From a virus, in IMG/VR virus record IMGVR_UViG_3300042397_000975, positions 1-46,781 of that record: a stretch of 46,781 nucleotides of DNA. One strand, 5' to 3'. The notes beneath the pieces are model-generated. The model worked only from the letters and a program-made list of their open reading frames with translations. It was not told where the DNA came from and searched no databases. This document shows, in pieces, positions 6,065-46,781 of this stretch. The position numbers were made by a program, and so were the translations under genes. Every line of letters begins with the position of its first letter. The stretch's first letter is position 1.

Positions 6065-9000
6065 TTAATCTATTTCGTTCTGTAAATCTTCTAATTGATA
6101 GCGTCTTATTGCTCTTTCTTCCGCCATCTCCTCTTCTGTTTTGCCTAAGTTATAATACTGTAGTGCTCTGCCTGTCATAGTGAATACCCCCGATCCGGTT
6201 AGAAAGCTTGACATATCAAGTAGTGCTTTCTTCTCTCTGTCATTCAAACTGACGCCGCGATAAAGATTTTTAATGCCACTTCCTGCAGCCTCTCCTCGAC
6301 CTATGACGTTAGATACTGGGCCAGAACTAGCGGATCCATAAACGATATAGCTCTCTACGAATCTTCCAAGAACTGGAGCAGTCGTCGAGATTGTGGATCC
6401 TGTGATTTGCACTGCCATTCTTTTTTCTTTCTTAAACTCCTCATCCTCTTCCTCATCATCTGCACCAAAAATAGAATCAATTGCAGCTTGGAAGTAACCT
6501 TCAAAAAGTACAGGCCCGGCAACAAGAACAGTCAATGCGCCTGAAAGACCTTTAACTTTATTAAGATTATCTTTATTGTCTCTGATCTCTAGCCCAAGCT
6601 CATTTAAGTTAATTAAAGGAATACTTGTTGCAGTGAGAAATAGTTTCTTAAGATCTGTACCTGCTTGAAGATTGGAAAGTGCTGATGCCGCCATCGATCC
6701 CTGAGTTCTCATTACAACATCGTCTGCGACTGCTATGGCTTCCTGCTCAGATCTTCCTTCTTTTAACTGTCTAGTATATGCTGCACTCCAAGTGGCCAAG
6801 TCTACGCGTTGCTGAAAGTACTGAGCAAAGAAAGTAGCAAGTAGGTTAATTTTGTCATCTGTCCACGTAACCCAATCAAAATTAGTATTAAGAAGATCCA
6901 TCGATCTGTGCGCATCTTTAATAGACGTATCGTATCGCTCTTGCATAAATGGCGATTTACCAAGTACTTGAGATGCAACTGCTTTAGGCTTCAGGTACGA
7001 TTCGATGGATGCTGCCACTAGGTCACGCTTCTTTACCCGTCTTGTTGCTTGCAATAGCCCTAGATTCTGTCTAAGACCTGAAGCAATGTTAAGAGAATAG
7101 AGTACAGTGTTGACTCCCTTGCGTGCTACGCGCGCGTATCGATCCATTAGATCGTTTGAGTATTCTGTGTAAACCTGTCTTGTAGTTCTGTTAAACCATG
7201 GAAGAATTACGTTTCTGTATGCGCCCGGTGCTTTCTCTTCAACTGCATTTTTTGCCTGAGGAGTAAGCATAATATTTCTAAAATTAGAAAGTGCTTCGCG
7301 CATTTCAATAATATCAATTGCAGCATTTGTGTATGCTGTAAGAGTAGAAATATCTAGGTCAATTTTGTCCACCCCACCTGTACGCTCTTTGGTAAAGTTA
7401 GTTCTTTGAACAAACGTCGATGAAGGTACTCCGTTAGTATCTATAGGCATATAATCCGAATCACTCGTTGCTGATTTAAAATCTGCATTAACAGAGATCG
7501 GCGCGTATCCTCCCGTAAGTATAACATCCTTACCATCGACGTTTACTGTAATTGATCTAGCTTTAATCTTACCGATAGGTATGTTATCTGTTTTTCTCAT
7601 TGTACTTTCAAGCTCAGGATGGAGCTCTTCAAATACCTTCCAAATTTCATTAACAGCATTAATATGCCCGATGTTGACTTTACCTTCTTTGATCAATCGA
7701 TTCATGGCCTCTTGATATTTAGTTAAGTCCACATCACGAGTAGCTTCATTAGTATCGGGATCTAAAACATAGGAAATATCGATCTGGGCATTTCTTAGTA
7801 AAACTTCGACTGCACCAGAATTACTGCCCATAAGCGTCATGAACTTAATTAGCTCGCCATCGTTTTCAAAAGTAATTCCAAGCTCAGGCATTGCGATAGG
7901 CTTAGGTAAAATCCCTAAAGCTTTCTGTGCAAATTCTGGAAGTCTTTTTCCGATAGGATTAAAGACAGCCTCTAGGCCAGGATTGTTCTTATAGATAGGC
8001 TTTAAAACATCTTGGATTCTGATCTTAGTCTTTTTCTTTCTTACCGAAGACTTACTCTCAGATGTAGTGACGTCAGAAATAATTTTAAACATCTGGCTCT
8101 TATAGTAATCTTTTCTTCCGATAAGAGATTCCATGAGCCATCGAATGTTAAGTGTGTCTTTAAGTCTTCCTTCTTTAAGATCTAAAGTCCCTGCGTATTG
8201 AGATACTTCCGAAGCAACGGCGTCACCCATTTCGTTTCTATCTGCATCTTTTAGGTCTTTCTTAAGCCTGGCCGCCGCCGATGATGCTTTTAATATCCCG
8301 TTCATTAAGTTTCCAAACGATAGCGCTGCCGCTACGTTGTTCTTTATTCTTGGCCCACCATAGCTTAAGTCATTGTATCTGTTGATAAGATCGTTAATCA
8401 TCTTAACCATCGACGGGTCAATTGCACTCGCATCGCTAATAAAGTCTATAGCAATCGGAGAAATCTTTCCTGATTCAGACTCCATGATTATCCGCTTGCC
8501 TTGATTCAGTAGATCAAGATCATAGCGATTAGCTGCTGCTTTCTTACCTGCATACTTAACAATCTTTCTAAGATCTTTATCCATCTTAACAAAAACAGAA
8601 TAAACTTTTTCAGCAGTTTCAAATGCTTTGAAATTTACCATCTGCTGATATTTGTCCTCAAGTGCTGATACAATATCGTTTGATTTAAAGTTCTTAGCTG
8701 CCGACTTTCCTTTTCTATCTGAATCAATAAGAAATCTTTTTGGTGAAAACTTATAAGCTGCCGACTGCATAATCTTCGATGTTGCCAATCTTTCGATCTG
8801 CTCTTTAGAATCTTTACCTGTATATCTGGCAGGATTAATTAACTTTGATGCTACACCTTTTAGAGTAGGCAAATATTTCTCAGCCAGGATTTTCATCTCA
8901 AGCTGCATTAGTTTTTCTTTGCCCTTATTCTGTACGGCTTTCTCAGCTATTTTGTGAATTTCATCGTCTGTCTTAAGTAGTGGGATCTCGGCATCGATCT

Positions 9001-12000
9001 GTTGATTTACTAAGTCATTGATGAGTTCATCTCTCTGACTCATTTCAATCATTGCAGTCATTAGCTCTGTGTAGTCGTTTATGTTGTTATCTGCCATAAA
9101 CTGATCGACTTCGATTCCACCTTTGCCTTTAGATGCCATGACCTGAAAAGGTACGCGTTGCCTAAAAGCTGATGCGCCTTCCACGTCGCCGCCAAAAAAT
9201 ACTCTAGCGATCGAATTAAAACTAAGTCGTGGATCCGTTCCTTGCTTTCCGCCTTCAACATACTGAGCATAATTGTCTTTAAAATATTTAAGAACAAGGA
9301 ATGTCGGTTGTGCATCAACTTCGTTTTCTGCCTTAACTCTAAACTCTTCAAGACGTGCAAGTGCTTCAGTCTCGCGCTCTTTTTCAGATTTGATAAATGC
9401 TTTAGTATAGGTGTCCCCGATTGCTCTACTTCTTGCCTCTTGTTGAGTTTCAAGATATTTAGCGCCATCGGCCCCAAGCATATTTGCGTCGAACATAGGC
9501 TCAGGGAACATCGGGTACAATGTATTTTCTATCTTGTCCGATGCGCCTAAGATAGTTTCAAAGATCCTTTCAATCTTAGGATTGATCTTAAATGGAGGAT
9601 ATTGCTTATAGGCATTACCAATTGACATGGCGATGCGTTTTAAGAATTGTCTAAAATGTTCTAGTACTTGTCTGAATTTATTATTTTCAAACTTACCTTC
9701 GTAGAAATATTTTTCTGCAGTCTGAGCGAATGTTTCGTGAATTCTTGTTTGCTGCTCTTTAGGAAGGTTAAGAATATCCGATATGTTACCTAGTTCAAAT
9801 AGTTCAGCAGTATCTTGCATTGCAGTTTTGTACTCTCGCTGCCTATCAGTTAATTGCTCTTCTGGGATAGCGAATATGAATTCACTGTCTCTGGCCATGT
9901 CATGTAACCACGAGTGGCCAAGCTCATGTGTGACAGTACTTAGATCTGCGTTCGGATCAATAAGGAGTTTAGTTAGCCCGTAAGGTAATCTTTCTGTAGT
10001 AATGTCGTAAGTAAATACACCTATCGTATTTTCTTTAAGTTTTTTTCTTGCCTTTTCTGCGGCAGTTAAAACTCCAAACTGCATAGTCATAAGTTCTTCA
10101 GGGCGCATGCCTAAAACTTCTGCCCTAAATCTTAGATGAGAATATTGAATCTCAGCAATAGCATCTAAAGATTCTTTAGGTATTTCGCCTGTCAGCTTTG
10201 TTGCTCTCTTTAGACCTGCTAAAATCTGAGTCATTAATCTTTGCTCTTTTTTATTTCTAAACTTCGATAGTAGCTGAACAGGACGCATTACAATATTACC
10301 TTCAGCTTGTGAAGGTTCAATAATTTGCATAGGTTCAATAGGCTCTGCTACGACGTCACTAGGCTCTTGGCCAGGAACAGGAGGTGGTAGATCCTCTTCT
10401 GATGTTTGATAGAATGATCTTACGATTTCAACATCTCTATCCTCGAAGATTACAAAATTTTTCTTATCGCTCTTTCCGCCTTGAGCAGAATATTGAATTC
10501 CGAAAATTCCTTTGCTTTTTAAAAAGTTAGAAGCTTTCTTATCGCTACCTAATTGATTAGATATAGCTTTGTAAAAACTTTTTCCTGATTTCCATTTTAC
10601 TTCAGGATCAGTTTTGTATATTTGTTTCATTACTGAATCTAATCTGTCTTTTACATATTCAGATTGCTTAGAGTATGTTTCTTCCCAATCAAGCATCTGC
10701 TCTTTCTCAGGAATTTCAACTTCGTAGGTTTGACCTTTATCAGTTTGCCATCCTCTTGATTCCATGACTTTTTTAAATGTTCTAGAATCTGGAGTGGTAA
10801 AATGTGTGCGAGGTCTTTCTCCCGGAATTTCATTTCCTTGTGCGTCTACAGAAATTGTTTCTACATACCATCCTTCTTCATCCCCATCAATAAACTGAAG
10901 AACTTTTTGATTTGAGGCATAGCCTGGAACAATTTGGCCAGGAGTATAATACTCTTTTAAAGCTTCAATAGGTAGCGCAAGACCTCCAGTATTGAGAGTC
11001 TTTCCATCTTTTGTAAATGTTTTTGAATATTCAGTTAGCTTTTCTCTATACCATTCAGCGATGTCTCTATCTTCTGTAAAGTAAAGGCCGTATCCAAATG
11101 CCTGAGCACCTTCACCTGTACCTATGGCTGCAGTAGAAAACTTATCAAAACGATAAGGACTTCCATGGTATGCCGATTGCAGGAACGACATAGGATTAGT
11201 AAAGACATCATCGGCAATTTCTGCCGCTTCCTTTGCATTGATTCCAATGTCAGGGAAACGAGCAATATCGTCGATGCCTTCGATTGCATCATCTGTTTGA
11301 AATGTAAGCCATTCGTCAATAGTTACTGAAACACTTGAGTCAGATTCTTTATTCTTAATATATTGGTCTTGTACTTCTGGGCTAAGATTTTGAATGACTA
11401 TCTGAGGATCAAAACCCTTCGATGTGACAAACTCATTAAACTCAGATGGAGTAAATAGTACAATCCCTTCCTGATCGATCTTTTCTTTTTCCGCAATTTC
11501 TTTATCACTTACTGTATCTGTTTCGTCGTTATAGATTTCAGGAGATCGAGATTTATCGGATCCTGCTTCGACAATAAGATCTTGTACAATTGTTTTGTTT
11601 TGTTTAGCGTCATCACTTTTTAAGATTTCTTGTCTGATGCCTTTAAGAGTCTCTGCGCGATCTTTGGCCGCTGCAGATTTCTTAATGTTAGATAGCATCT
11701 TATTAGCGCCCTTCTTAGCATACTCTGCGGTAAGGACTGATCCGTTTGCAATTGCTGATCCTGTAGCAATAAAGCCCGGAGATACTGTTGCTTCTCTTAC
11801 TGCTGCAGTTATATTCTTTGGAAGATTCTCAATGCCTTTTCCTACATAAGCATCTGCTGCCGTCGATGCTGTGAACTCGGATCCACCCTCTTCAATGACA
11901 GAAGCAGTGGCAATCTTTTGTATTTTAGGAATTACACCTGCACCTTTAGCTGCAATCTTACCTGCGACTCCTCCAAGTAAAAAGTCTGAAACAGACATTG

Positions 12001-13579
12001 CACCTGAATATATGGCCGACTGTGCTCTCCAAGTAGCCACTCTTTCTGGATCACTAAACGCTCTATCATAATCTATGCTACCGTCCGGACGTCTAAACTC
12101 TTGAAGCTGTTCATCCATTCTGGATCCAAAAGATAATAAAAGAGATAGCCCTGTACCTCCGACTACTAATGTTGCCCCTGCAGTTGCGCCTGCACCTGTA
12201 GATGCCAAAATTCCACCTGTAATAGTTAATGCAGATGGTGCAAAAGATGATGCACTGGATACAATCTCCTCCATATACTCATCAGGATCCCCTGCGTATG
12301 AGGCAATCGCAGATAGATAATTGCTTAGAGATTCGTATGCCCCTTGAAGCACTTCCCCTTGCATGATTTTACGAACGCCTTGCTCACCGCTATTCCAGTA
12401 TGTTTCGATCTTTTTTCTAGCTGCAAAATCTTTTACTGGTCTAAATTCTTTGGCTTTCTGATCAAGCTCAAATAGCGCCCTCTTTCCTGAATTAGTATCC
12501 AATCCCCCATACAGCATTTGAAAATGCGTAGCATATCGTTTTAGCGTAATCTCATTAGATCGAAGTGCTTTTACAAAATTACTATCAGTATTTAAGGCTT
12601 TAGTTTTTAATTCAATACGATGAGGAAGCTCACCTGTCTTTTTCATCATGACATAGTTATCAGGATTCTTTGCCCATTGAGATACTGCAGGAAAGTATTG
12701 TGCAGTAAGTCCATTAGCATTTCTGGCGAGAATATCCTCTGCGCTACTATCGGCTAGAAGATCCCTGGCCTCGAGTAATCCTATGCCAAGCTTCTTCGAT
12801 ATTCTTTCTGCCTCTGACCTGCGCATTAACCATTGAGAAGAACTTTCTCTAAATGTTGCATCCGATGCAGCATCAAGTACGCTTTTAGTATCTTGAGGCT
12901 TTGCAGATTCTGCAGGCTGATCTTTGTTTGTCAGTACATCATTAACGACATCATCCATTTCAGCGATGAAGTAGTCATCTACTACCGGAGCGTTAGACGG
13001 CTGCGCTTGTTGTGGCGCGACTTCATTGACAATGCTATCCAGATCAATATCAAAATCATCTCCGGCAACAAAAGCTCCGGGTGCTGAATCAGCTTGAGTG
13101 CTTGGCCTATCGAAGGGATTAGGAGAGATTACCTCTGCGCTATTCCATAGTTGCGCTCGATATGCTGCTCTTTTCTTTAGTGAATCTAGTTGAAACTTCT
13201 TACCTGTGGCCGCATCTGTAGTATTCACATACTCAAGAATAGCTTTGCCTACGCCTTCATCATCACCAGAATTTACTCTGTCGATGATTCCTTTCATGCC
13301 TGTGAGCCCTAAGTTATAGTGCATATCAATAAGAACATCCTGCCTGTTTTGAGGAAGATCTTGTCTTTTGATGACTGAGCCTAGTTCTTGCTCTGCAGTC
13401 TGCATCCACTTTCTTAATCTAAGGTCGGCATCCTTTTTTGTTACAGGAGTGGCAGAGTCTTTTGTATCCCCGTACCCAACTGCATACTTACCTGTTTTTG
13501 CATCTAGGTAAGGCGTTGCACTAAACCCTTCGAATTCTTTAATCTTGTTAATGATTTGTTCTGAAGCTTTGATTCCCAC
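6065..13579 (-). CDS. Giant polyvalent virion protein (lysozyme, ART-like, metallopeptidase-like)
   Basis: This is a 2,504-residue protein with a GTG start and an AGGGG SD. Residues 1-150 form a phage lysozyme (GH24-like) domain with E17-G18 and D26; the T4 Thr26 position is Ala33. Around 804-840 lies YHGSP followed by GTGEGAQAFGYGLYFTE, the signature of the ADP-ribosyltransferase-like domain of large polyvalent proteins. At 1218-1222 HELGH is a zincin-type metal-binding motif. Hydrophobic stretches occur near 440-620 and 2330-2360. Long helical regions fill the rest. In place and size it corresponds to T7 gp16, the internal core protein that is ejected, degrades peptidoglycan and helps DNA enter the cell. 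The ART and peptidase motifs suggest it also acts on host proteins, which is inference. It is about twice the length of T7 gp16. Confidence 0.85.
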   Translation of the reverse strand: MGIKASEQIINKIKEFEGFSATPYLDAKTGKYAVGYGDTKDSATPVTKKDADLRLRKWMQTAEQELGSVIKRQDLPQNRQDVLIDMHYNLGLTGMKGIIDRVNSGDDEGVGKAILEYVNTTDAATGKKFQLDSLKKRAAYRAQLWNSAEVISPNPFDRPSTQADSAPGAFVAGDDFDIDLDSIVNEVAPQQAQPSNAPVVDDYFIAEMDDVVNDVLTNKDQPAESAKPQDTKSVLDAASDATFRESSSQWLMRRSEAERISKKLGIGLLEARDLLADSSAEDILARNANGLTAQYFPAVSQWAKNPDNYVMMKKTGELPHRIELKTKALNTDSNFVKALRSNEITLKRYATHFQMLYGGLDTNSGKRALFELDQKAKEFRPVKDFAARKKIETYWNSGEQGVRKIMQGEVLQGAYESLSNYLSAIASYAGDPDEYMEEIVSSASSFAPSALTITGGILASTGAGATAGATLVVGGTGLSLLLSFGSRMDEQLQEFRRPDGSIDYDRAFSDPERVATWRAQSAIYSGAMSVSDFLLGGVAGKIAAKGAGVIPKIQKIATASVIEEGGSEFTASTAADAYVGKGIENLPKNITAAVREATVSPGFIATGSAIANGSVLTAEYAKKGANKMLSNIKKSAAAKDRAETLKGIRQEILKSDDAKQNKTIVQDLIVEAGSDKSRSPEIYNDETDTVSDKEIAEKEKIDQEGIVLFTPSEFNEFVTSKGFDPQIVIQNLSPEVQDQYIKNKESDSSVSVTIDEWLTFQTDDAIEGIDDIARFPDIGINAKEAAEIADDVFTNPMSFLQSAYHGSPYRFDKFSTAAIGTGEGAQAFGYGLYFTEDRDIAEWYREKLTEYSKTFTKDGKTLNTGGLALPIEALKEYYTPGQIVPGYASNQKVLQFIDGDEEGWYVETISVDAQGNEIPGERPRTHFTTPDSRTFKKVMESRGWQTDKGQTYEVEIPEKEQMLDWEETYSKQSEYVKDRLDSVMKQIYKTDPEVKWKSGKSFYKAISNQLGSDKKASNFLKSKGIFGIQYSAQGGKSDKKNFVIFEDRDVEIVRSFYQTSEEDLPPPVPGQEPSDVVAEPIEPMQIIEPSQAEGNIVMRPVQLLSKFRNKKEQRLMTQILAGLKRATKLTGEIPKESLDAIAEIQYSHLRFRAEVLGMRPEELMTMQFGVLTAAEKARKKLKENTIGVFTYDITTERLPYGLTKLLIDPNADLSTVTHELGHSWLHDMARDSEFIFAIPEEQLTDRQREYKTAMQDTAELFELGNISDILNLPKEQQTRIHETFAQTAEKYFYEGKFENNKFRQVLEHFRQFLKRIAMSIGNAYKQYPPFKINPKIERIFETILGASDKIENTLYPMFPEPMFDANMLGADGAKYLETQQEARSRAIGDTYTKAFIKSEKERETEALARLEEFRVKAENEVDAQPTFLVLKYFKDNYAQYVEGGKQGTDPRLSFNSIARVFFGGDVEGASAFRQRVPFQVMASKGKGGIEVDQFMADNNINDYTELMTAMIEMSQRDELINDLVNQQIDAEIPLLKTDDEIHKIAEKAVQNKGKEKLMQLEMKILAEKYLPTLKGVASKLINPARYTGKDSKEQIERLATSKIMQSAAYKFSPKRFLIDSDRKGKSAAKNFKSNDIVSALEDKYQQMVNFKAFETAEKVYSVFVKMDKDLRKIVKYAGKKAAANRYDLDLLNQGKRIIMESESGKISPIAIDFISDASAIDPSMVKMINDLINRYNDLSYGGPRIKNNVAAALSFGNLMNGILKASSAAARLKKDLKDADRNEMGDAVASEVSQYAGTLDLKEGRLKDTLNIRWLMESLIGRKDYYKSQMFKIISDVTTSESKSSVRKKKTKIRIQDVLKPIYKNNPGLEAVFNPIGKRLPEFAQKALGILPKPIAMPELGITFENDGELIKFMTLMGSNSGAVEVLLRNAQIDISYVLDPDTNEATRDVDLTKYQEAMNRLIKEGKVNIGHINAVNEIWKVFEELHPELESTMRKTDNIPIGKIKARSITVNVDGKDVILTGGYAPISVNADFKSATSDSDYMPIDTNGVPSSTFVQRTNFTKERTGGVDKIDLDISTLTAYTNAAIDIIEMREALSNFRNIMLTPQAKNAVEEKAPGAYRNVILPWFNRTTRQVYTEYSNDLMDRYARVARKGVNTVLYSLNIASGLRQNLGLLQATRRVKKRDLVAASIESYLKPKAVASQVLGKSPFMQERYDTSIKDAHRSMDLLNTNFDWVTWTDDKINLLATFFAQYFQQRVDLATWSAAYTRQLKEGRSEQEAIAVADDVVMRTQGSMAASALSNLQAGTDLKKLFLTATSIPLINLNELGLEIRDNKDNLNKVKGLSGALTVLVAGPVLFEGYFQAAIDSIFGADDEEEDEEFKKEKRMAVQITGSTISTTAPVLGRFVESYIVYGSASSGPVSNVIGRGEAAGSGIKNLYRGVSLNDREKKALLDMSSFLTGSGVFTMTGRALQYYNLGKTEEEMAEERAIRRYQLEDLQNEID

Positions 13580-24756: not shown

Positions 24757-26328
24757 CTATGCCTTATAATTAGGCGATGGTCTGTAATATTTGTCAATAT
24801 GAGATTGATCCGATACATAATTGGACTTATTCCTTCGATTCCATTGCTCGACGAATTCCTCATCTGACATTCCTTGAGATCCTGCCGTTGCTCCGGAAAA
24901 GTCTGCGTAAAAGCTAGGCTGCTCTACATCCGCAAATGTTTGAGCTAATGCGTCTGCTTTATCCGGCGATCTTCCGAGCCTTGACTTGATCTGCTCTTTT
25001 TCTTCTAAGCGGAATACTCCACCATGGAAGATAAGCTTAGGCATCATGAGCTCTTCGGACAGTTGTGGATCTTTAGGTAGGCATCCACCCTTTCTGATCC
25101 AGTCCCTCATTCTAACCCACATCTCAGTTCTTTTGTTGAAATATCTTTTATCGTTTGCTTTCGCATTATAAACGATTGGAGTAATATCGAGGTTTGGAAA
25201 TAGCCCTAGACTGTCTATTACTGATGACCCGTATCCTCCGGTGTTATCAACAAAGACTCGCTCGATTCCTTGGTCTTGTTGCATGAATGCGATTTTGCTT
25301 GCAAGCTCTGGGCCATATATGTCAGACGAAATAGATTCAAGAGGATAACACTTAAGGCCCCGACGGCGAGCAAAAACAGTCCTGTCAATACCGCCGCGAG
25401 CGACATCAACCCCCAAGCGATGCTGAGAGTTCTTAACAAGTTTTTCTGCAATATCCCTGTTTTGCGATTCATGGATCTCTGCCTCCGTAATTAGCATATC
25501 ACTAGATACGTTAGGATATTTACCAAATACGTTTACCATTACCCATGGATCTTCTTTTCCGTATGTCTCGATCTGCTCACGCGCCCAATCCTTACTTACC
25601 CTTGGTGCACGTTTAGGATCATCGGGATCCCCTGATATAGTATAGACTGCCCACTTCTGAACAGATCTTCCCATGTAGGCGCGATAGATAATACCTTTCG
25701 GAACCTCTGGGTTGGCCGTCACTAATAGTTTAGCTGTCTTAGTATCGGAGTCACCTGTTGATAGTGCTGCATCTGCGGTTGCAAGTACGGCATCTGGGAT
25801 TGTACCTGCTTCATCGATAAGAAATGCTACGTTGTCGGAGTGAAGACCTGCTAGTGCTGACGCCTGCTGAGATTCATCTGCTTGTTTTGGAAATGACCTT
25901 GCATCGATAAACGAGTAACCTTCATGTCCTTTCATTGTGATCTTACTAAAACCTTCGTTTGTAGATTGAGTAAGTAATGGAGAACGAGCGCGCCACTTTA
26001 AAAGTTCCGCCCAAAGGTTTGCCATTAAGTGATCTTTCGTTACGGAGAGTGCTGCCATCTTAGGTTGATAGCGTGTGGCAAAGAAGTGCCATCCGAGCAT
26101 AGCGAGTGTAAATGTCTTTCCTGGCCCTTTAGATGCCACAAGTGCAATACGCTGATTATTAACGTACAGATCTACTACATCTTCCTGCCAAGCATCGAGT
26201 GTCACATCGAAGGCATCTTTAAAAAAGATCTTCGGTCTGTGCCTCCAAAGTTTAGCAACATCAGATGGTTGTAGTGATATTGGTTTACCCAAGCTTCTTC
26301 GTGTGTTTGGAAATCCTATATCATTCAT
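24757..26328 (-). CDS. Terminase large subunit
   Basis: This 523-residue protein has an ATPase domain with a Walker A variant SKGPGKT (66-72; K71, T72), the Walker B pair D172-E173 in AFLIDEAG and a coupling TANPE motif near 205. The RNase-H-like nuclease domain has acidic residues D308 (GVDVARGG), D361 (FVDNTGG) and D456/D459 (SPDKADAL). All expected catalytic positions are present. The enzyme pumps DNA into the prohead and cuts it. It has an SD (GGGGA) about 7 bases before the ATG. A 261-base gap to the small terminase holds a possible plus-strand gene. Confidence 0.95.
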   Translation of the reverse strand: MNDIGFPNTRRSLGKPISLQPSDVAKLWRHRPKIFFKDAFDVTLDAWQEDVVDLYVNNQRIALVASKGPGKTFTLAMLGWHFFATRYQPKMAALSVTKDHLMANLWAELLKWRARSPLLTQSTNEGFSKITMKGHEGYSFIDARSFPKQADESQQASALAGLHSDNVAFLIDEAGTIPDAVLATADAALSTGDSDTKTAKLLVTANPEVPKGIIYRAYMGRSVQKWAVYTISGDPDDPKRAPRVSKDWAREQIETYGKEDPWVMVNVFGKYPNVSSDMLITEAEIHESQNRDIAEKLVKNSQHRLGVDVARGGIDRTVFARRRGLKCYPLESISSDIYGPELASKIAFMQQDQGIERVFVDNTGGYGSSVIDSLGLFPNLDITPIVYNAKANDKRYFNKRTEMWVRMRDWIRKGGCLPKDPQLSEELMMPKLIFHGGVFRLEEKEQIKSRLGRSPDKADALAQTFADVEQPSFYADFSGATAGSQGMSDEEFVEQWNRRNKSNYVSDQSHIDKYYRPSPNYKA

Positions 26329-26364: not shown

Positions 26365-26593
26365 GAAGTTAATACAGTTTATGTTTTTCCTTCAATTTAC
26401 TCTCTACCAATTTGACCCTCTGTGGCAGTCAATGTATCAACCTGCACCCACTGAATCGCAACGGGTGCAAGAAGTTTCAACGGAACCTGAAGATCAAAGC
26501 TATTCGGAATTATCAAACAACTCGGAAGCTGAACATTATTCCTGGGAGCTCGGAACTCCTGACAACATTCCTGAAACAGAAATAATCTATTAG
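26363..26593 (+). CDS. Possible isolated plus-strand gene between terminase genes
   Basis: The open frame gives 76 residues from ATG 26363 (alternative ATG 26381). The N-terminal ~20 residues are hydrophobic (LIQFMFFLQFTLYQF), followed by an acidic, disordered tail rich in Glu, Ser and Pro. Its stop overlaps the stop of the oppositely oriented small terminase gene by two bases, as in tightly packed convergent genes. A perfect extended -10 lies just upstream. Against it: no SD is visible, and everything else for 27 kb is on the minus strand. No family recognised. It may be a small membrane-anchored accessory gene or an accident of a non-coding gap. Confidence 0.35.
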   Translation: MKLIQFMFFLQFTLYQFDPLWQSMYQPAPTESQRVQEVSTEPEDQSYSELSNNSEAEHYSWELGTPDNIPETEIIY

Positions 26594-27120
26594 ATAAGAT
26601 CATCTATTTTATCCGGCGCTTCGAGATTACGCTTCTCTTCGAGTTCGTAATACTCAGCTTCTATATCCTCTAAAGATTTTCCTGAATCTTTGTCGTAAGA
26701 CTTCAAGATAATATCGGATAGAGTAACATTGTGATTCACATCTAGCTTTTCTATAAAGTCAGCTTCGGACTTACCAAGAAGTTCTGAAGCTTTAAGTCTA
26801 ATCGGTAGCGGTATGTTACCTTCTGGTATTGGAACACCATTAGGATCTAGTTCTTCTTTTCTATATGGATCATCGTTTTTCATAATCTGTGACCAAAGTG
26901 CCTGACGTTCTTCGCGCGTCGCTATGACTTCTTTAAGATTGGCAACATACTTTCTTCGATCTTCGATTGCTTTCTTAATAAGTGGAAGTGATAGTAGCTC
27001 TTCACCTTTTTGTTTAAGGTAGACGTCTGTGCCGTTGTACCCTGCAACTCTCATTGCTTGAAGTAAATCGCCATCGTAAGCTTCTACAAATACTCTATGC
27101 TTCTGAGATAATTTCAACAT
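26590..27120 (-). CDS. Terminase small subunit
   Basis: This is a 176-residue protein. The N-terminus (LKLSQKHRVFVEAYDGDLLQ, then AMRVAGY) is the helix-turn-helix pattern of terminase small subunits, which bind phage DNA and recruit the large subunit. The C-terminal half is helical (ASELLGKSEADFIEKLDV). The start at 27120 is chosen over an in-frame ATG at 27159 because AAGGAGG lies 9 bases upstream. It overlaps the end of the csrA-like gene by 26 bases. It ends DKIDDLI, one of the shared C-terminal tails of this phage. It precedes the large subunit gene. Confidence 0.85.
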   Translation of the reverse strand: MLKLSQKHRVFVEAYDGDLLQAMRVAGYNGTDVYLKQKGEELLSLPLIKKAIEDRRKYVANLKEVIATREERQALWSQIMKNDDPYRKEELDPNGVPIPEGNIPLPIRLKASELLGKSEADFIEKLDVNHNVTLSDIILKSYDKDSGKSLEDIEAEYYELEEKRNLEAPDKIDDLI

Positions 27121-27316
27121 TTGATTTTGCCTCCTTACGCCTTTTCTCAAAGTATTCATGTATCTCTGCGCGATCTACGATGTAGTTCTTCGATGGTAGA
27201 TCAAGCACCACTTGGCATTGTGATGGAGATAACTTTGCTATGTGAATTGTAATCTTTTCGTTGTTGGGTAGTGTGATGATTAGCGATTGGTTTTTACGTC
27301 GAGTGAGTGACAGCAT
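27095..27316 (-). CDS. csrA: CsrA-like RNA-binding translational regulator
   Basis: This 73-residue protein starts MLSLTRR and has LPSKNYIVDRAEIHEYF, the two halves of the CsrA RNA-binding surface. L4, R6-R7 and R49 correspond to E. coli L4, R6-R7 and R44. The strand pattern and length (E. coli CsrA has 61 residues) also fit. CsrA dimers bind GGA motifs in mRNA leaders and usually block ribosomes. It is the first gene of the late leftward block, with a strong SD (GGAGGA) 4 bases from the ATG that itself contains GGA motifs, so autoregulation is possible. It could silence host mRNAs, mimic or compete with host CsrA, or time phage expression; which of these is unknown. Confidence 0.85.
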   Translation of the reverse strand: MLSLTRRKNQSLIITLPNNEKITIHIAKLSPSQCQVVLDLPSKNYIVDRAEIHEYFEKRRKEAKSNVEIISEA

Positions 27317-27347
27317 ATCTTCCTCCGATGATAGATATATTAAAAGC

Positions 27348-27377
27348 AGGATACGGCCGTAACATCCTTGTAGTCAA
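27348..27377 (-). promoter_or_regulatory. Candidate promoter of leftward (late) block
   Basis: On the minus strand, TTGACT (27377-27372), an 18-base spacer, and TATCCT (27353-27348) lie about 35 bases before the csrA-like ATG. This gives 5/6 and 4/6 matches to the sigma70 consensus. It is the best-placed promoter for the 32-kb leftward block. Confidence 0.5.
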
Positions 27378-27434
27378 CCGCACCTATAATTATTTTGGGC
27401 AGGGGTGACATGGTATGTCTATAAATATTTTAGA

Positions 27435-27454
27435 GGGTGGGGGAGGGGTATGGG
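27435..27454 (+). other. G-quadruplex motif 1
   Basis: Four G-runs of 3, 5, 4 and 3 bases are separated by loops of 1, 1 and 3 bases (GGG T GGGGG A GGGG TAT GGG). Short loops favour a stable quadruplex. It is on the strand that is the template for the leftward block. Confidence 0.8.
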
Positions 27455-27482
27455 ATATTATAATAATAAGTATGTGAGTCTA

Positions 27483-27504
27483 GGGGCAGTTGGGCCGGGG
27501 TGGG
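27483..27504 (+). other. G-quadruplex motif 2
   Basis: G-runs of 4, 3, 4 and 3 are separated by loops of 5, 2 and 1 bases. It lies 28 bp after motif 1 on the same strand, within a general G-rich stretch (27397-27535). Confidence 0.75.
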
Positions 27505-27636
27505 TATATACACGCGCGGTCACAACGAAAGGGGGTCGACAAGTTCACAAAGACGAAAAGTTTGATTGAACAAAAAATCTAATAGGCTCTGAGACGATCA
27601 GAAACCTAGCTAGGCGACGTTTAGACCTGCATGCCT

Positions 27637-27681: not shown

Positions 27682-27819
27682 CAATGCCACCACGTCCACA
27701 ATGCCACCACGACCGCAATGCCACCACGTCGATCAGTGGAGAGTCGCTACGCCACGACGTCCACAATGCCACCACGACCGCAATGCCACCACGTCGATCA
27801 GTGGAGAGTCGCTACGCCA
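27682..27819. repeat. 65-bp tandem repeat with 17-bp iteron-like units
   Basis: Two 65-bp units begin at 27692 and 27757. Each contains 17-bp sub-units of the form CAATGCCACCACGNCCN: copies at 27682, 27699, 27716, 27764 and 27781. Between the sub-unit groups lies TGGAGAGTCGCTACGCC. Iterons of this length bind replication initiators in many plasmids and phages. Confidence 0.85.
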
Positions 27820-41321: not shown

Positions 41322-41738
41322 CTATTTTATGTACTTTCCTTCCAGAATGATTGCAGATAGTTCAAGCGCCCTGTCGCCGACTTGCTTTGCCCAAGTAGAA
41401 TTCATCATCTCAGTCGCAGCACCTTCCCAATCTTTAGCTTGAAGATAGGCAATAGTCTTTTTGAATTTAAGAAAGCGAGGAAGTCCAATGTTAAAGACTA
41501 GGTTAATGATTGCATCTTGCCTGGCCAGGTTGAGCTCAGTGAACCATTTGTATTTTAAGAGTGGAGTCTTTGCTGCCTCAATGTCATACCTAAGCATCAT
41601 GCGCGCCTCCGCCTCTGTGATCCCATTGTCTTCGATGTTCCTACCTATACCTATCGTAAGCTTACCTGCAGTACATCGATATGGTTTAAGCTTCATACCT
41701 TCGTGTCGTATTAACATGTTCTCTAACTTATCGCTCAT
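41322..41738 (-). CDS. Endolysin (GH24 lysozyme, E/C/T type)
   Basis: This 138-residue protein has RHEGMKLKPYRCTAGKLTIG with catalytic E13, C22 and T28 at the exact spacing of T4 lysozyme E11, D20, T26. Asp is replaced by Cys, a known variant among phage lysozymes. Size is close to T4 lysozyme (164). It cleaves peptidoglycan in late infection. No signal peptide, so it needs a holin; a candidate lies at 43072. It is the last gene of the leftward block and overlaps the phosphoesterase by four bases. Confidence 0.9.
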   Translation of the reverse strand: MSDKLENMLIRHEGMKLKPYRCTAGKLTIGIGRNIEDNGITEAEARMMLRYDIEAAKTPLLKYKWFTELNLARQDAIINLVFNIGLPRFLKFKKTIAYLQAKDWEGAATEMMNSTWAKQVGDRALELSAIILEGKYIK

Positions 41739-42445
41739 AGAATCTTCCCTATCCAGTTGCCATCCTTATCTAAGATCATTGGCAATAGCTTTGGCTGTCC
41801 ATCTAAAATTACACCGCATCCCACAATAGGACGTTTCATCTGAAGCTTATTGTATGCAAACGCTAAGGACTTGTCGTCTATTAAACATCCGACAATCATT
41901 GACCAGAATATATTTGTAGGGTTAGCGTGATATTGAATATCGAAGACTGAGTGATGATGCCCTTGCACTGTATTCATGGACATCGACTGTCCTAGTCTAA
42001 GTCCATTGGACGATTTGCCATGGTGAAAATAACAGTCTCTCCCGTCTGACAATTTAATAGTAAGATCAGAGTGCCACTTCCATCCCTTTGGTGCATTAAG
42101 TATTTCTCTATAATCCTTGAATACGAATCTTGGAATTCCTCCATGTTTTCCACGACGATATACAAGTGATCCATGGTTAGACTCCAGTACGTCTGCCTTA
42201 GGAAATAATTCATATAGCGGTTCTAAGTACTCAATCGCCTTCTCTAGCTCAGAAGAAGGAGAAAAAGGAAGATCAGGATCTTTGTCGTGAAATGAGATAC
42301 AATGCCCATCGATTTCATCTCCTGTTAGAATTATTCTATCAGGTTTAAAAAATTCTTTAATAGCGGAAAGGAATGGAATTGTATCTTTATGATAGTAGGG
42401 CGAGTGAAGATCTGATATTACAAGTACTGTATGATTCTTTGCCAT
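41735..42445 (-). CDS. Calcineurin-like metallophosphoesterase
   Basis: From ATG 42445 there are 236 residues. The start is selected over 42451 because AAGGA falls 5-6 bases before it. All metal-binding motifs are in place: D12-L-H14, G-D43-E-I-D, N90-H91 (ESNHG), H141-H142 and G-H163-H-H165. These enzymes act on nucleotides, nucleic acids or phosphoproteins. Substrate unknown. Placement inside the lysis cassette is unusual. ATGA overlap with the endolysin gene implies coupled translation. Confidence 0.85.
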   Translation of the reverse strand: MAKNHTVLVISDLHSPYYHKDTIPFLSAIKEFFKPDRIILTGDEIDGHCISFHDKDPDLPFSPSSELEKAIEYLEPLYELFPKADVLESNHGSLVYRRGKHGGIPRFVFKDYREILNAPKGWKWHSDLTIKLSDGRDCYFHHGKSSNGLRLGQSMSMNTVQGHHHSVFDIQYHANPTNIFWSMIVGCLIDDKSLAFAYNKLQMKRPIVGCGVILDGQPKLLPMILDKDGNWIGKIL

Positions 42446-42478
42446 CGCCATCCTTGGTTACATGCAAATAAATTGTAT

Positions 42479-45856: not shown

Positions 45857-46771
45857 TTAAATGATAAACCAATCAGTTCCGTCACTAACAAGTGTAGCGG
45901 ATTGACGAGTAGAAGTTAATAAATAATTTGCGGCTGCGCCTTCAATTTGTTCCCCGTTGTGAGGTTCAAGAGTTACAAGATCAGATCCTGTTTTCTTGAC
46001 CACTAATGTCTTGTTTATCGCAGGAGAAGGAAGCTTAACTACCGACACGCCAGATAGTAAATATATTTTATATGGCGCTGCATTAAGATCTCCTGTGTGA
46101 ACATGAATGTTCATCACTAGACCCTCGAGGGTATCGACACGTCCATCAAGACTTACGATGTCTGATTGTGCTTGAGTCATGTCAGATTCTAAAGTTCCGA
46201 CTCTAAGCTCAACAGCATCAACTTCTAATTGCGCTTGACTAGCTTCAACATGAACAGCCTCGAGTCTTAGATCAAAATCACTATCAAAGCTTTGACGATC
46301 TAAAACTTCCTGAGCGATTGATAATTCAACTTGCTCCATGTCTAATTGTAATTGAGCCACTTCACCTTGAATCACTGAGAGATCAACAGGAGGAATTGCA
46401 GCGATCGCATTGTCTGTGTATAGATTAGCCGCAGATAAAGTATCCGCGTCTTTAGAATCTACTTCAGTTTTATTGTAGTAGTCTGTAGGATCCACTGTCG
46501 GTATGGCAGCGATAGCATCATCGACGTATTGCTCTGTTGCGTATGCTGATAAATCCACTGGAGGAATCGCAGCGATCGCGTCGTCTACGTATTGCTCAGT
46601 TGCGTATGAAGATAAATCAACAGGAGGGATTGCTGCGATAGCATTGTCTGTATAAAGGTTTGCAGCAGCTAAAGTAGAAGCGTCTTTAGAATCCACATTG
46701 GCGATAGTCTCATACGCCGACAGATCCACTGAAGGGATTTCCGCAATGGCATTGTCTGTATAGAGATTTGC
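45857..46771 (-). CDS. Tail fibre protein, C-terminal part (continues at 1-633)
   Basis: The frame carries on from the N-terminal part at 633-1 through the circular join. It has repeats NLYTDNAIAAIPPVDLS and ATEQYVDDAIAAIPPVDLS, then a coiled coil (QLQLDMEQVELSIAQEVLDR) and a C-terminal beta domain. The last ~50 residues (VKKTGSDLVTL ... SDGTDWFII) match the tip of the adaptor fibre at 4891, implying a duplicated tip. The apparent TTG start at 46774 is an artefact of the window end. It ends 10 bases before the 788-residue fibre gene. Confidence 0.85.
   Translation of the reverse strand, partial: ANLYTDNAIAEIPSVDLSAYETIANVDSKDASTLAAANLYTDNAIAAIPPVDLSSYATEQYVDDAIAAIPPVDLSAYATEQYVDDAIAAIPTVDPTDYYNKTEVDSKDADTLSAANLYTDNAIAAIPPVDLSVIQGEVAQLQLDMEQVELSIAQEVLDRQSFDSDFDLRLEAVHVEASQAQLEVDAVELRVGTLESDMTQAQSDIVSLDGRVDTLEGLVMNIHVHTGDLNAAPYKIYLLSGVSVVKLPSPAINKTLVVKKTGSDLVTLEPHNGEQIEGAAANYLLTSTRQSATLVSDGTDWFII
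46646..46771. repeat. Right copy of 126-bp end redundancy
   Basis: This stretch is identical to 1-126. The match stops at 46771; the final ten bases (46772-46781) do not continue the genome. Confidence 0.9.
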
Positions 46772-46781
46772 CAATGTGGAT
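46770..46781. other. Inverted 12-base end artefact
   Basis: GCCAATGTGGAT is the reverse complement of 46-57 (and of 46691-46702). A fold-back at the contig end is typical of amplification chimeras or assembler graph ends, not biology. Confidence 0.75.

Follow-up and report, generated by a model that had tools for sequence, protein, structure and literature searches.

A diverged CsrA-family gene directly before the terminase genes of an uncultivated podovirus-like phage

Genes of the csrA family are known from a number of phages. One survey reported csrA in 30 phages among 2517 (PMC7366521), and phage CsrA was also surveyed in PMC8450108, which puts forward the idea that phage CsrA/RsmA manipulates the host, including its CRISPR-Cas systems. 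So far, phage CsrA proteins are mostly bioinformatic matches, with a role against CRISPR-Cas as the proposed function. Tailed phages with such a gene include the Pseudomonas phages F116, YMC11/07/P54 and AUS531phi and the Vibrio phages D65, D279 and VvAW1, whose CsrA proteins have about 60-75 aa (123 aa in some Pseudomonas phages). In eight annotated phage regions, csrA lies amid repressor, recombination or unknown small genes, and the eight proteins are 57-81% identical to E. coli CsrA. The Lessievirus phages JC1, DC1, BcepIL02, BcepMigl and CSP3 are podoviruses with Burkholderia as hosts; their late structural block includes a diverged csrA, flanked by portal-linked genes on one side and by the major capsid gene on the other. 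In JC1, a temperate phage, this protein (gp47) is viewed as a 'moron' (PMC9144972). A search of INPHARED with E. coli CsrA matched 85 records, of which at least those of Salmonella and Acinetobacter MD-2021a look like bacterial sequence. Record CAKLQH020000034.1 (L060), labelled as an Acinetobacter phage, carries alaS, thrA, csrA and rnhB and is chromosomal sequence in a phage collection.

We examined a csrA-like gene in the window, the whole stretch of 46,781 nt analysed here (IMG/VR record IMGVR_UViG_3300042397_000975; features in Table 1). The reading frame that the first-pass annotation had called a phage CsrA homologue is present exactly as described there. It starts with ATG behind the Shine-Dalgarno sequence and encodes 73 aa (MLSLTRRKNQ...ISEA). 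Like bacterial CsrA/RsmA (E. coli CsrA, Pseudomonas RsmA/RsmE), the product has the Pfam CsrA domain PF02599, with about 28-28.8 bits at a curated cut-off of 27, and it matches PHROG 9500 'CsrA-like regulator' (E 2e-4) and PHROG 5527 (E 2e-3). Against the NCBIfam equivalogs TIGR00202 and NF002469 it scored 19.5 and 24.4 bits, below the cut-offs of 70.1 and 73. Judged by these scores, it is a CsrA family member at the superfamily level and not a like-for-like CsrA. The eight phage CsrAs above resemble E. coli CsrA more closely. The window protein had no match in INPHARED at E 0.01 (tblastn), and a phmmer search of the PDB with this protein alone gave 0 matches; it is therefore strongly diverged. 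Taken alone, its match to CsrA is marginal. The homologues in the same slot of two related contigs, L006 and G008, also pass the Pfam cut-off (30.5 and 49.2 bits), and a profile built from the three lineages matched only CsrA/RsmA chains in the PDB at E<=0.1, nine in number and with a best E of 1e-4. These scores bear out the family assignment of the first-pass annotation. A chance reading frame could be ruled out, since homologues occupy the same slot in diverged phages.

The annotation had further claimed that the key RNA-binding residues are kept, which holds in part. In an alignment with E. coli CsrA (28% identity), L4, T5, R6 and R7 are kept and R49 corresponds to R44, whereas H43 and E45 are replaced by D48 and A50 and five residues are inserted: four follow the first strand, and one precedes the last strand. 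A review names L4 and R44 as especially critical to RNA binding (PMC7652899), and by the alignment the window protein has kept both residues. Across the three csrA lineages, M1, L2, L4, R6, P41, R49 and E51 are invariant. The structure prediction lends weak support to the CsrA identity. The CsrA fold is a five-stranded chain that forms an intertwined dimer and has a C-terminal helix. An AlphaFold monomer of middling confidence, predicted from a four-row alignment (pLDDT 75.4, pTM 0.48), was assigned three strands and the helix. The top 15 PDB rows in Foldseek were all CsrA/RsmA (best E 0.011, none below 0.001), the VIA Z was at most 4.6, and five of the first eight viral Foldseek rows were annotated phage CsrA.

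Table 1. Positions of the csrA-like gene, its neighbours and nearby sequence elements in the window
Feature	Position	Strand	Basis or remark
csrA-like gene, 73 aa	27095..27316	-	PF02599 score, PHROG 9500, same-place relatives in L006 and G008
Shine-Dalgarno GGAGGA of csrA	27321..27326	-	sequence; holds two GGA triplets
Small terminase gene (terS)	26590..27120	-	PHROG 51, E 8e-13; start chosen from sequence similarity with L006, G008 and L010
Large terminase gene (terL)	24757..26328	-	PHROG 2, E 3e-23; 38 related loci
Sigma70-like promoter TTGACT-N18-TATCCT, directly before csrA	27348..27377	-	consensus match; counterparts in relatives
Palindrome TACGGCCGTA, sole copy in window	27352..27361	.	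between -35 and -10, within 18-nt block identical in L006
CTACAAGGATGT, 11/12 to SELEX consensus RUACARGGAUGU	27362..27373	-	in promoter spacer
Conserved upstream element CGACCCCCTTT...TATACCCACCCCG...TTATTATAATA	27420..27545	-	common to csrA-plus and csrA-less relatives
Tandem array, 65-bp unit (GCCACCACGTC...), 2.1 copies	27682-27819		98% matches; in the intergenic region that separates leftward and rightward blocks

In agreement with the first-pass annotation, csrA opens the leftward late block and precedes the terminase genes; the gene order is csrA-terS-terL. This slot differs from the surroundings of csrA both in the eight annotated phage regions and in the Lessievirus phages. The novelty of a phage-encoded CsrA as such is low, because phage CsrA has been surveyed and one in a late structural block, that of JC1, has been published. 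What is new is a diverged CsrA in the unusual slot next to the terminase; in the open-access literature we found no paper on csrA beside the terminase or on a self-regulated phage csrA.

When IMG/VR was searched with a profile, four contigs with the protein were recovered: two whose protein is identical to that of the window (L001/L046 and L002), L006 (59% identity to the window protein) and G008 (38-40%). Related terminases occur in 38 IMG/VR records, four of which carry a CsrA above the cut-off. Many of the 38 records are fragments, and the near relatives L007 and L008 end before the csrA slot. The gene order csrA-terS-terL is found in the window, L001, L002/L003, L006 and G008, which represent three lineages. 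In G008, the contig ends share 55 bp, so csrA and terL, which lie at opposite contig ends, become neighbours on the circle. The genes csrA and terS share an overlap that is 26 nt long in the window and L006 and 23 nt long in G008. L010, which is the sister of G008 in the TerL tree (support 100/99), lacks csrA, and there the common upstream leader runs straight into terS. In its distribution, csrA is like a gene that phages acquire or lose at one fixed slot. A label test on the TerL tree gave three changes for csrA when L007 and L008 were counted as csrA-less; with these two set aside, one gain and one loss (in L010) are enough by our reading of the tree. The gene evolves faster than its terminase neighbours: between the window and L006 or G008, identity is 59 or 38% for csrA, 73 or 69% for terS and 92 or 84% for terL.

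The sigma70-like sequence upstream of csrA has counterparts in G008 (TTGACT-N18-TAAAAT) and in the csrA-less L010 (TTGACG-N18-TACAAT). The three lie at nearly the same distance (-61 in the window, -52 in G008, -56 in L010), and we read the element in the window as the late promoter. All promoter calls are consensus pattern matches, and the pattern TTGAC-N16-18-TANNNT occurs nine times in the whole window, counting both strands. In the window, G008, L010, L013, L015, L020/L023 and L024, it precedes the first late gene by no more than 65 nt. Of ten stretches scanned at terS starts, four (L012, L016, L019 and L021) lack it. The palindrome TACGGCCGTA inside the csrA promoter is a possible operator for some DNA-binding regulator. 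It lies in the block GGATGTTACGGCCGTATC, which matches L006 at 18 of 18 positions between diverged flanks; the first 17 bases of this block occur in only three IMG/VR contigs, always at csrA.

Farther upstream, TTATTATAATA follows CGACCCCCTTT...TATACCCACCCCG ahead of the late block in the window, G008 and L010. The core of this element, TATACCCACCC, is present in the window/L002, G008, L010, L020/L023 and L021, thus with and without csrA, and the element may be a promoter, a packaging site or a replication site. The csrA leader itself folds no better than its shuffles (z 0.03).

The explanation that we consider likely is that the phage protein is an RNA-binding protein of the CsrA/RsmA family that has diverged and evolves fast, is expressed late, is translationally coupled to terS and represses GGA-containing transcripts. 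In this explanation, csrA would be a cargo-like gene that a single small clade of uncultivated podovirus-like phages carries behind the late promoter and in front of terS. A sigma70-type promoter lying 25-60 nt upstream would make it the first gene transcribed in the late operon, and the overlap of 23-26 nt would couple its translation to that of terS. By analogy with CsrA, the product would dimerise, bind RNA that contains GGA and repress or alter translation; its most likely targets would be host transcripts late in infection. It is the late position of csrA that argues for a role at this stage. Both functions suggested by the first-pass annotation, a rewiring of host mRNAs or a timing of phage translation, are plausible for a protein of this family. 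A csrA that heads the late block, overlaps terS and is gained or lost among close relatives offers a natural test of whether host or phage late messages are the target.

Other roles can be conceived for the protein. It might repress host cas or other defence transcripts as host RsmA does. Campa et al. described RsmA control of CRISPR-Cas in Serratia, and the same role has been proposed for copies on mobile elements (PMC8450108); a product of the late operon, however, would come late for blocking the CRISPR targeting of incoming DNA, and we consider counter-defence improbable. An equally small probability falls to a regulator that is made late, packaged into the virion and delivered at the next infection. 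The CsrA of the podovirus JC1, encoded in the structural block, was represented by one unique peptide in purified virions, but its authors regard a single peptide as not definitive (PMC9144972). Moreover, the homologue of the related phage DC1 shares only 17% identity with the window protein, whose gene adjoins terS, not the portal and capsid genes that flank csrA of the JC1 type. It is very improbable that the protein is a regulator no longer, that is, a CsrA-fold remnant or neutral passenger. Its low conservation relative to TerS and TerL and the lack of the gene in L010 would fit such a decay, but none of the three lineages has a broken frame, and the seven invariant residues named above have been kept.

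Self-regulation of the late block deserves separate consideration. The phage CsrA might bind GGA hairpins in its own leader, and coupling would then limit the translation of terS and tune the late block; we rate this as unlikely. That CsrA throttles its own late operon, with the leader hairpins and the csrA-terS overlap setting the terS dose and the timing of packaging, seems quite unlikely; if true, the throttle would be a late gene switch that acts through translation of the first late message. The case is built on CTACAAGGATGT at -57, which differs at one position from the CsrA SELEX consensus (PMC7652899). It is the only site in the window with at least 11 of 12 matches (shuffles had a mean of 0.52 such sites, and 22 of 60 had at least one) and the top score among the 48 gene starts examined. 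In the MFE fold, ACA-AGGA-UGU at this site forms a hairpin with GGA in the loop, and the identity of GGATGTTACGGCCGTATC with L006 despite diverged flanks points in the same direction. In G008, GCA-GGGA-UGC spans the start codon, and both altered stem positions compensate. A score of at least 9 together with a stem of at least 3 pairs was reached by 2 of 500 shuffles each for the window and G008 leaders, and by none of the leaders of eight other phage csrA genes, but this combination was devised only after CTACAAGGATGT was known, and 3 of the 48 gene starts in the window show it as well. Nor was it reached by the leader of a chromosomal csrA of Acinetobacter, taken from a record wrongly labelled as phage.

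Self-regulation through the -57 site looked strong at first and was downgraded after the promoter had been read. CTACAAGGATGT is located between the -35 and -10 elements of a promoter that has a counterpart in a csrA-less relative, and the match is therefore probably promoter DNA and not mRNA. The Shine-Dalgarno sequence with its GGA triplets would be in any csrA transcript, whereas transcription probably starts downstream of the 11/12 site. In addition, the stability of the leader fold equals that of shuffles, as given above, the start-codon hairpin of G008 is rivalled by a stronger fold (GGA unpaired probability 0.00-0.64), and the DC1 csrA leader has no such site by eye. A second candidate site, AACCAAGGATGG at the start of a metallophosphoesterase gene (41735-42451), was dropped; G008 has CAAGGACG there, in which GGATG is not kept.

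The TerL matches in INPHARED do not point to a host: all are below 60% identity, and the best among the matches listed was 42%, to Xanthomonas phages. The CsrA profile hit one bacterial CsrA in genome contigs, that of Candidatus Muiribacterium halophilum (34%), which is uninformative on the host, and a plasmid search with the G008 CsrA protein gave two weak matches. Scans of the window for tRNAs and Rfam families returned no match. Both contig ends lie in repeat-rich reading frames (1-392 and 45857-46774, minus strand), and we found no exact terminal repeat at the window ends; a break within a single repetitive gene may therefore have produced these ends. At the place matching the tandem array between the two blocks, G008 has other short repeats. 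On the minus strand at 41322-42451, an endolysin-like gene is preceded by the metallophosphoesterase gene (PHROG 221) whose start carries AACCAAGGATGG. The structural block contains a single reading frame of 2504 aa (6065-13579, minus strand).
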